Below are positions 16,861 through 17,984 of a DNA stretch of 64,000 nt, in pieces. The notes beneath the pieces were generated by a model. The model did no database searches and had not been told where the DNA came from. It saw only the letters and a list, made by a program, of their open reading frames with translations. The translations under genes were made by a program, and so were the position numbers. Position 1 is the first letter of the stretch. Each line of letters opens with the position of its first letter. Source of the DNA: Oceaniglobus trochenteri (GTDB lineage: Bacteria > Pseudomonadota > Alphaproteobacteria > Rhodobacterales > Rhodobacteraceae); the NCBI RefSeq assembly GCF_020529025.1, contig NZ_JACNMM010000008.1:186001-250000 (forward strand). The letters are read 5' to 3'.

Positions 16861-16901
16861 AAAAAAACGGCGGCGCCCGGGAGGAGGTGGGCGCCGCCGT
16901 T
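16861..16901 (-). terminator. Strong intrinsic terminator closing the sRNA array, with the motif in its loop
   Basis: AACGGCGGCGCCC (16866-16878) and GGGCGCCGCCGTT (16889-16901) form a perfect 13-bp stem. The 10-nt loop on the transcribed minus strand is ACCTCCTCCC. Seven T follow directly in the transcript. The loop carries the same nonanucleotide as the upstream sRNAs. Confidence 0.85.
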
Positions 16902-16909
16902 CTTCGCAG

Positions 16910-16939
16910 CGCACACCCTTAAGGGAGGAGGGGTGTGCG
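16910..16939 (-). ncRNA. Extra CCUCCUCCC stem-loop distal to the array
   Basis: CGCACACCC (16910-16918) pairs perfectly with GGGTGTGCG (16931-16939). The intervening loop contains CCTCCTCCC on the minus strand (16923-16931). It sits between the last repeat unit and the terminator and differs in sequence from the repeat stems, so the shared loop is not merely duplication. Confidence 0.5.
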
Positions 16940-16972
16940 AACCGGCTGGGGCCGTGGCCCCTGAAACTGCGC

Positions 16973-17039
16973 GGTGACACCCGGGAGGAGGTGGGTGCCA
17001 CCGCTTTCATCGACAGGCCCAATGGGAGGAGAAGACCTG
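16973..17039 (-). ncRNA. CcsR-like sRNA core, copy 4 (most distal)
   Basis: Two hairpins read on the minus strand. The first is CAGGTC / GGCCTG around TTCTCCTCCCATTG (17039-17014), closed with a G-U pair. The second is GGTGGCACCC / GGGTGTCACC around ACCTCCTCCC (17002-16973), also with one G-U pair. This two-stem-loop, anti-Shine-Dalgarno layout is that of the R. sphaeroides CcsR RNAs, which lie downstream of a DUF1127 gene and help with oxidative stress. Processing ends are not predictable here. Confidence 0.7.
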
Positions 17040-17090
17040 CGGATCTGGTCGGGATGGGGGCGACTTGTGCCCGAACCCCTGAAACTGCGC

Positions 17091-17157
17091 GGTGACACCC
17101 GGGAGGAGGTGGGTGCCACCGCATTCATCGACAGGTCCAATGGGAGGAGAAGACCTG
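17091..17157 (-). ncRNA. CcsR-like sRNA core, copy 3
   Basis: It has the same two-hairpin layout as its neighbours. CAGGTC / GACCTG (17157-17132) forms a perfect 6-bp stem around the CTCCTCCC loop. GGTGGCACCC / GGGTGTCACC (17120-17091) encloses ACCTCCTCCC. The spacer to the next copy carries the conserved GTTTCAGGGG segment. Confidence 0.7.
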
Positions 17158-17209
17158 CGGATCTTGGTCGGGATGGGGGCGACTTGTGCCCGAACCCCTG
17201 AAACTGCGC

Positions 17210-17276
17210 GGTGACACCCGGGAGGAGGTGGGTGCCACCGCTTTCATCGACAGGCCCAATGGGAGGAGAAGACCTG
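17210..17276 (-). ncRNA. CcsR-like sRNA core, copy 2
   Basis: Hairpin one is CAGGTC / GGCCTG (17276-17251), with one G-U pair, around CTCCTCCC. Hairpin two is GGTGGCACCC / GGGTGTCACC (17239-17210) around ACCTCCTCCC. The loop sequence is unchanged, while the first stem differs from copies 1 and 3 only by a change that keeps pairing in the minus-strand RNA. Confidence 0.7.
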
Positions 17277-17327
17277 CGGATCTGGTCGGGATGGGGGCGA
17301 CATTCGCCCGAACCCCTGAAACTGCGC

Positions 17328-17394
17328 GGTGACACCCGGGAGGAGGTGAGTGCCACCGCTTTCATCGACAGGTCCAATGGGAGGAGAAGACCTG
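17328..17394 (-). ncRNA. CcsR-like sRNA core, copy 1 (nearest ccaF1)
   Basis: Hairpin one, CAGGTC / GACCTG (17394-17369), is a perfect stem around CTCCTCCC. Hairpin two, GGTGGCACTC / GGGTGTCACC (17357-17328), keeps all ten pairs through two G-U wobbles and loops out ACCTCCTCCC. The extra base change in this stem, compared with the other copies, is again only tolerated in the minus-strand transcript. Confidence 0.7.
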
Positions 17395-17448
17395 CGGATC
17401 TTGGTCGGGATGGGGGCGATCTACGCCCGAACCCCAGGAGAAAAATGC

Positions 17449-17513
17449 GGCGACACCCGGGAGGAGGTGGGTGTCACCGCAAGAAACAGAAGACCCCGGG
17501 AGGAGGTGGAGCC
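17449..17513 (-). ncRNA. Two further CCUCCUCCC stem-loops between ccaF1 and the repeats
   Basis: Hairpin GGTGACACCC / GGGTGTCGCC (17478-17449) encloses ACCTCCTCCC and has one U-G pair. A second hairpin, GGCTCC / GGGGTC (about 17512-17492), encloses the same loop with two G-U pairs. They follow the ccaF1 stop codon by about 15 nt. They may form the first RNA of the array or the 3' UTR hairpins of the ccaF1 mRNA. Confidence 0.55.
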
Positions 17514-17529
17514 GTCTGATTCCTGAACC

Positions 17530-17748
17530 TCAGGCGCCGTAGGCGGCTTCGGTTGCAATGGTGTTGATCATCGCGCGGTTGATGCCCAGGTCGGCCAGTT
17601 CGCGCTCGCTCAGCTGCGACAGCTCGGTCAGGGTGCGGCGGTAGGTGCGGTACTGCTCCATGCGCTCGCCGATGTTCTTGAAGAAGGCGGCCGTGCGGCC
17701 CATGATGTCGGAACGGGCGGCGCCGTGGGTGTTCGTGATATAAGCCAT
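17530..17748 (-). CDS. ccaF1: DUF1127 small RNA-chaperone-like protein, CcaF1 type
   Basis: A 72-residue, basic, helical protein: MAYITNTHGAARSDIMGRTA at the N-terminus, then the DUF1127 core YRTYRRTLTELSQLSERELA and DLGINRAMINTIATEAAYG. In R. sphaeroides the equivalent gene (RSP_6037, CcaF1) is co-transcribed with the CcsR sRNAs under stress sigma factors RpoHI/RpoHII, and the protein binds RNA and affects its turnover. The same gene order is seen here, with eight CCTCCTCCC copies downstream on the same strand. GAGG lies about 9 nt before the ATG. I saw no promoter I could assign confidently. Confidence 0.85.
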   Translation of the reverse strand: MAYITNTHGAARSDIMGRTAAFFKNIGERMEQYRTYRRTLTELSQLSERELADLGINRAMINTIATEAAYGA

Positions 17749-17984
17749 GTCTCAAACCTCTTTGCGTATCTGGGCGCCGGTGCGCCCCGTGTTCTGTTGA
17801 GACTGAAAATAGGCATATGCTGCACCTGCGCAATCCCGGAAAGGCTCAATGCTGCTATGCAGCAAGTGCATACGTAATGTTGACCTAAAGTCAGGCACTT
17901 GGCGCCCCTGCCGCAAGCGGGCGATCCGGCTTGCCGTCAGGGTGCAAAGGTGCATGGTGAACCCGGTTTTCAGAAGGAGGCAGC

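Follow-up and report, generated by a model that had tools for sequence, protein, structure and literature searches.

Cuckoo RNAs, put forward by Reinkensmeier and Giegerich in 2015, reportedly consist of adjacent hairpins that carry the same loop motif on variable stems, with 2-4 hairpins per RNA. The tail of the 16S rRNA carries the anti-Shine-Dalgarno (aSD) core CCUCCU. In R. sphaeroides, the RNAs CcsR1-4 are described as transcribed together with ccaF1, derived from its 3' UTR and processed with the involvement of RNase E and CcaF1 (PMC10253847), and as interacting with Hfq and targeting flhR (PMC8307010). The three identical aSD motifs of NfeR1 are reported to be redundant, the two validated targets of this RNA being mRNAs of substrate-binding proteins; for AbcR1 and AbcR2 the aSD1 motif is given as CUCCUCCC, and ABC-transporter mRNAs are said to be repressed at the ribosome-binding site (PMC8844928). 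Further background was drawn from PMC8625941, PMC10746234, PMC3320616 and PMC12218461.

Results and Discussion

A DUF1127 gene followed by six two-hairpin units

The locus studied here, gene and array together, spans 17748 to 16862 on the minus strand of the window, which is the whole 64,000-nt stretch of Oceaniglobus trochenteri DNA that was analysed. Its features, with the supporting evidence in brackets, are the following:

17847..17861, plus strand: VtlR-binding motif CAATGCAGCCATGCA, matched with 2 mismatches, upstream of the DUF1127 gene
17807..17834, minus strand: candidate promoter ATTGCG-N15-CCTATTT (conserved same-genus block and RpoH1 resemblance)
17530..17748 (coding 17533-17748 plus stop), minus strand: DUF1127 gene, ccaF1-like, 72 aa (Pfam PF06568)
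17442..17523, minus strand: unit 1, a pair of aSD hairpins (motifs 17498 and 17459), then TTTTT, a putative early terminator (RF02791, 48.1 bits)
17402..17435, minus strand: separator hairpin 1, motif-less (repeat family D4; separator fold z -2.4)
17321..17400, minus strand: unit 2, motifs 17379 (8-mer) and 17338 (9-mer) (RF02791, 27.1 bits; repeat; accessibility)
17283..17316, minus strand: separator hairpin 2, motif-less (D4; z -2.4)
17203..17294, minus strand: unit 3, motifs 17261 and 17220 (RF02791, 29.3 bits; repeat)
17165..17198, minus strand: separator hairpin 3, motif-less (D4; z -1.7)
17084..17163, minus strand: unit 4, motifs 17142 and 17101 (RF02791, 28.8 bits; repeat)
17046..17079, minus strand: separator hairpin 4, motif-less (D4; z -1.3)
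16966..17057, minus strand: unit 5, motifs 17024 and 16983 (RF02791, 29.3 bits; repeat)
16948..16961, minus strand: separator hairpin 5, short GGGGCC...GGCCCC form (read from the sequence; small hairpin in the fold)
16862..16943, minus strand: unit 6, hairpin with motif 16923 and terminator hairpin whose loop holds motif 16879 (RF02791, 39.4 bits)

The DUF1127 protein matches PF06568 in Pfam (E 9.4e-14), and its gene sits directly upstream of the array on the same strand; its nearest named relatives are from Paracoccus and Limimaricola, and a scan of genome contigs gave seven relatives. The 668 nt that follow the gene contain, on the minus strand, eight copies of CCTCCTCCC (plus-strand starts 16879, 16923, 16983, 17101, 17220, 17338, 17459 and 17498) and four further copies of CTCCTCCC (17024, 17142, 17261 and 17379). 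All eight starts, as well as a shortened motif in each of four repeat units, had been listed in the first-pass annotation, and the eight starts match exactly. In shuffled sequences CCTCCTCCC occurred 0.88 times on average and 5 times at most, and none contained eight copies.

The CcsR1 model (Rfam RF02791) gave six end-to-end matches over the array, scoring 27-48 bits where the cut-off is 65.3, and six were also obtained in the scan of family genomes; the best of them, unit 1, covers model positions 1-83 of 83 (E 1.6e-10) and also stays below this gathering score. At the gathering threshold, the Rfam search of the window returned two tRNAs only, all CcsR1 matches lying under the cut-off. Together with the Pfam match, the six model matches confirm the DUF1127-CcsR identity proposed earlier. 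The array had been described as leader hairpins, four units, a distal hairpin and a terminator. These elements are present, but since each of the six matches spans the full model, the leader hairpins correspond to unit 1, the tandem repeats to units 2-5, and the distal hairpin with the terminator to unit 6, so that the whole reads better as six two-hairpin units.

The terminator hairpin of unit 6 has 16-nt arms (16863-16878 and 16889-16904) that are 94% complementary, carries the final motif (16879) in its loop and is followed by T7; a terminator scan with a loop limit of 8 nt missed it. The same scan reported two terminator-like sites against 0.9 in shuffles, namely hairpin 1 of the array (17507-17493, minus strand) and one plus-strand site outside the array. 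In the four tandem units the copies of the strong hairpin lie 118-119 nt apart. A 237-nt copy recurs two units along at 95% identity, whereas a shift by one unit gives 67% (ungapped), and a two-unit block may therefore have been duplicated as the array grew.

Relation to described systems

As in the cuckoo RNAs, adjacent hairpins here share a loop motif on variable stems; those RNAs reportedly have 2-4 hairpins each, whereas twelve lie in one presumed precursor here, as in many relatives. An upstream DUF1127 gene, a CCUCCUCCC-type loop motif in two-hairpin units and stems that vary while remaining paired were all found, and the locus is a ccaF1-CcsR-type (CIN1, "cuckoo RNA") locus, a fairly large member of a type already known. 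It resembles ccaF1-CcsR1-4 of R. sphaeroides (CIN1; RF02791), in which, according to PMC10253847, several CcsR RNAs and a Rho-independent terminator come after a DUF1127 gene. It differs in having six units rather than four, in model scores that stay under the curated cut-off, and in its eight exact plus four shortened motifs. Neither motif-less separator hairpins nor a terminator-like T-run after unit 1, such as this genus has, was met in the available text of the literature consulted.

The array is also similar to NfeR1 (alpha-r14, Rfam RF02344), which has three identical, redundant CCUCCUCCC motifs: RF02344 gives five matches here, of 32-51 bits, the best (50.8) falling short of the gathering score of 58.8. 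NfeR1 is described as a single 115-nt sRNA with an RpoD-type promoter, and the available text of that source mentions no DUF1127 precursor (PMC8844928). With AbcR1/AbcR2 (alpha-r15) the array shares the aSD1 loop CUCCUCCC. Membership of that family was considered and rejected: AbcR is one RNA of ~120 nt with two distinct aSD seeds, whereas a one-seed array in a 3'-UTR position is found here.

Loops are exposed and stems are conserved as pairs

The 668-nt array region is more structured than its 20 shuffles (z -9.9). Each of the twelve motifs is mostly unpaired when folded locally, the probability that 6 nt are unpaired being 0.59-0.96 (mean 0.86), compared with 0.14 over all positions. The earlier statement that all twelve lie in hairpin loops holds to this extent; in the global minimum-energy fold it applies to 10 of 12 only, and motifs 17459 and 17101 fall in an internal loop between units, because the strong stems of different units are mutually complementary and interchangeable. 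The stems flanking each motif of this locus (L020) score 9-17, counted as pairs minus mismatches, the shorter stem (9-10) coming first in a unit and the longer one (12-17) second.

Across 456 hairpins from 57 DUF1127-linked arrays, stem pairing with the hairpin's own arm averages 9.5, and 5.3 when the 3' arms are swapped between loci; the largest mean of 200 such shuffles was 5.55. Not all hairpins are strong: 79% of the 456 have a stem score of at least 7. Thus the two arms of a stem change in sequence together, and pairing and loop are both kept, as would be the case for a loop presented for base pairing. Among 43 folded separators from 12 distinct arrays (L085 being left out as a copy of L136), 26 reached z <=-2 against mononucleotide shuffles and 17 did not; one of the 26 includes a decayed aSD hairpin.

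A run of five T follows the second hairpin of the array (17437-17480 of the window), and T-runs are likewise seen at L021-L025. With a T-run of at least 4 required, it is found after hairpin 2 in all six same-genus loci and in 11 of 46 arrays overall, after 4 of 294 inner hairpins and after the last-listed hairpin of 21 of the 46 arrays; these counts cover arrays with at least four motifs and a detected DUF1127 ORF, without L059, and the sequences are related, so a p-value on them is not a clean test. Since the T's of its final terminator pair in the stem, the present array scores just 1 there, and the measure therefore misses terminators. Judged from its sequence, the T-run after unit 1 is a possible early terminator, located before most of the array.

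Distribution among relatives

Motif pairs 25-55 nt apart occur in 161 of 198 genomes of the family; the reversed-pattern control matches 40 of 198, partly because loops reading CCCCTCCTCCTCCC contain the reversed pattern, and a single motif pair may be due to chance, as seems to be the case for L059, L062 and L068. The CcsR1 model finds a match at E <=0.001 in 163 of 198 genomes, only 9 of which reach the 65.3-bit cut-off; of 14 named control genomes one gave a match, and none passed the cut-off.

A DUF1127 ORF precedes 57 of 63 distinct arrays, a link that is partly built in, as 26 of the 63 came from the DUF1127 query. Such an ORF lies at most 400 nt upstream in 24 of the 29 distinct arrays obtained from the motif pattern alone and in 8 of 8 found with RF02791. 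The 57 linked arrays hold 2-26 motifs (median 8), with at least 12 in 13 of them; the six arrays with no detected DUF1127 ORF (L027, L062, L066, L068, L070 and L086) do not enter the motif-count and stem statistics, and the sample consists of best matches and pattern hits rather than a random choice, with short flanks that can cut arrays. Given paired motifs in 161 of 198 genomes and up to 26 motifs per array, the twelve loops, which had been singled out as remarkable, are ordinary; the comparison of array length and motif count with relatives thus goes against that claim.

In the six same-genus arrays the exact 8-mers number 12 (the present array), 5, 12, 6, 9 and 4. All six loci have matches to mrp/apbC and uvrD/pcrA in their flanks, and they are therefore taken as one orthologous locus; mrp was found in 52 of 77 loci, duplicates included.

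Some relatives deserve mention in their own right. L064 (G186), the longest array found, has 26 copies of CCTCCTCCC in 1,170 nt with a three-hairpin repeat of ~140 nt, and the arms of some of its hairpins no longer match, as if recombined. In L032 (G006), a DUF1127 gene lies near uvrD/pcrA and the 3.2-kb locus contains no CTCCTCCC; the array has perhaps been lost there. At L030/L046 (G012:C6), several DUF1127-like matches lie within ~2 kb, with separate motif clusters around them.

Ribosome-binding sites that match the loop

That the motif might pair with ribosome-binding sites had been proposed in the first-pass annotation, and the analogy with the aSD motifs of NfeR1 and AbcR supports it (PMC8844928). 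The literature on CcsR, NfeR1 and AbcR therefore led us to search for genes whose ribosome-binding sites match the loop. Sites of the form GGAGGAGG...ATG numbered 19 in 4.59 Mb (0 in the reversed control), and GGGAGG...ATG sites 223 (19 in the reversed control).

Among the matches listed, solute-binding proteins accounted for 18 of the 63 ORFs with a GGGAGG start site and for 3 of the 53 with an AAGGAGA start site (Fisher p 0.0014). The 63 remain from 100 of the 223 GGGAGG places, after 3 that were not located and 34 ORFs shorter than 80 aa, and the 53 from 70 of 84 AAGGAGA places, after 2 that were not located and 15 short ORFs. In the GGGAGG set, 24 of 63 ORFs were scanned singly and 18 counted; L115 and L259 had no match, and L299 matches a solute-binding protein but was excluded from the 18, its ATG lying inside the gene. 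In the AAGGAGA set, 10 of 53 were scanned singly and 3 counted, the remainder being judged from the best 25 of 89 families. The site class is not exclusive, as 45 of the 63 GGGAGG-started ORFs were not counted as solute-binding proteins. The 19 GGAGGAGG places gave 13 ORFs, of which 10 were scanned and 4 were solute-binding proteins (L098, L099, L101 and L102, the match of L099 being just below the Pfam cut-off).

A GGGAGG Shine-Dalgarno sequence precedes 17 of 29 usable SBP_bac_1 genes (G000, loci L346-L375) and 0 of 36 long window ORFs, start codons having been chosen slightly differently in the two sets. Co-evolution of GGGAGG with the array in particular is unsupported: the proportion among SBP_bac_1 genes is 16/29 in 13 array-lacking genomes and 16/30 in 13 array-bearing ones, all chosen by hand from the motif-pair and CcsR1-model scans, among the matches listed (30 SBP_bac_1 loci per search). 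As the usage is the same where arrays are lacking, it is not an adaptation to the CcsR array alone, and the GGGAGG site class at solute-binding-protein genes is older or wider than the array. AbcR-like RNAs with the same seed may read this class where arrays are missing. In the literature within our search, with subscription papers mostly outside it, we found no report that brings AbcR1, the Shine-Dalgarno sequence, solute-binding proteins and GGGAGG together; two papers combine the first three.

On GGGAGG sites the mean duplex energy favours the loop over the 16S tail by 3.8 kcal/mol, and on AAGGAGA sites it favours the tail by 1.5; the contrast follows in part from the choice of gene groups. 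The unit loop is predicted to pair most strongly (-30.6 kcal/mol) with GGGAGGAGGTGG before an ATG at G000:C27:189298-189313 (L092); the ORF after this ATG has just 31 aa, and the site may be there by chance.

Proposed function and alternatives

The sequence, the conservation of structure, the distribution and the ribosome-binding-site statistics are established here directly; transcription, processing, targets and early termination are inferred. The joint explanation that we prefer, with a probability of about two in three, is that of a CcsR (CIN1) locus whose interchangeable loops silence GGGAGG-type mRNAs, solute-binding proteins being the prominent candidates. A single minus-strand transcript would comprise the DUF1127 mRNA and then six two-hairpin CcsR-type RNAs, which RNase E, helped by the DUF1127 protein, would cut apart, as reported in R. 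sphaeroides. Each hairpin loop would expose CUCCUCCC, and the loops, as interchangeable seeds, would block translation by antisense pairing with Shine-Dalgarno sequences of the GGGAGG type; prominent candidate targets are solute-binding proteins of ABC, TRAP and TTT importers. The repetition of units would most likely increase the amount of a single seed and not provide different regulators. Because its own ribosome-binding site pairs weakly with the loops (duplex energy with the unit loop just -7.0), the DUF1127 mRNA should be largely spared. The terminator-like tail after unit 1 may stop part of the transcripts, with read-through yielding the long array. Control of solute-binding proteins by the array is a prediction and not a finding, and flhR, the sole CcsR target named in the available text of the literature consulted, speaks against such targets, being a regulator and not a transporter.

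Redundant antisense silencing is a stronger reading than either a bulk decoy or a sponge. It had also been suggested that the array could act as a bulk antisense, and twelve loops mimicking the 16S rRNA tail could lower the translation of most mRNAs under stress: the CCUCCU of the motif is the aSD core of 16S rRNA, the strong loops read CACCUCCU like the 16S tail, and GGGAGG...ATG sites far exceed their reversed control (223 vs 19). Such a decoy is nevertheless improbable, given that full 8-nt complements near ATG are as few as 19 in 4.59 Mb, that the motif ends in CCC, departing from the rRNA sequence, and that the advantage of the loop over the 16S tail on GGGAGG sites turns into a disadvantage on AAGGAGA-type sites; the earlier claim is therefore left doubtful. 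We give equally little credence to a sponge that mainly titrates RNAs, proteins or RNases (Hfq, RNase E or the DUF1127 protein), with mRNA pairing being secondary; nothing in this analysis pointed to such a sponge or to the RNase recruitment suggested earlier. Many near-identical tandem loops would suit titration, an interaction of CcsR with Hfq is reported (PMC8307010), and CcaF1 reportedly binds CcsR1 in vitro (review PMC10371769), but a loop that is kept while the stems change fits base pairing of the loop better than binding of the stem, even if a loop-binding protein is compatible with the kept loop sequence.

The position of the array directly downstream of the DUF1127 gene and the T-run of at least 4 after hairpin 2 in all six same-genus loci would also agree with a cis element, that is, a 3' UTR mainly stabilising or attenuating the DUF1127 mRNA. 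Near-invariant loop motifs on changing stems would then be left unexplained, and CcsR RNAs of R. sphaeroides are described as acting on other mRNAs (PMC10253847, PMC8307010), which makes this role highly improbable. Reading frames that enter or cross the array stay open for 150-152 aa on the minus strand and 102-176 aa on the plus strand, and yet a translated tandem-repeat protein has a negligible chance of being correct: conservation lies in the pairing of stems whose sequence is exchanged, not in a peptide, and a coding tandem repeat was rejected because units of 118-119 nt break the reading frame from one to the next.

The antisense reading could be extended further, to a scheme that we consider unlikely and offer tentatively. 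GGGAGG would be an "address" on solute-binding-protein genes of the family, read better by aSD loops than by the ribosome; CcsR arrays, with their 2-26 loops, would be a reader of this address that can be tuned by copy number, an early terminator after unit 1 would fix the number of loops per transcript, and the uptake of many nutrients would be lowered together under stress. Antisense silencing itself leads to a testable target rule for CcsR/cuckoo RNAs, namely that a loop with a CCC end should prefer ribosome-binding sites of the GGGAGG type, which are common at solute-binding-protein genes, to AAGGAG sites. If this rule is confirmed, the RNAs CcsR, NfeR1 and AbcR would all read a single class of ribosome-binding site.

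Upstream region of the DUF1127 gene

In Brucella, three DUF1127 genes are reportedly regulated by VtlR, whose binding motif is quoted as CAATGCAGCCATGCA (PMC12595884). Matches to it with at most 3 mismatches number 4 in the window against a shuffle mean of 3.46, that at 17847-17861 being the sole one with 2; by match alone, the VtlR-type box is at chance level. The promoter and terminator scan found no sigma-70 site. The ccaF1-CcsR locus of R. sphaeroides is described as having an RpoHI/RpoHII promoter (PMC10253847), and the S. meliloti RpoH1 consensus is quoted as CTTGAA-N16-CCTATAT (PMC8844928). In the candidate promoter, the CCTATTT/CCTATCT and TTG elements are conserved at a spacing of 15 nt, compared with 16 in that consensus. 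VtlR-type and RpoH-type inputs to the locus are both possible. The upstream block that holds the VtlR-like box and the promoter element is kept in five same-genus loci.
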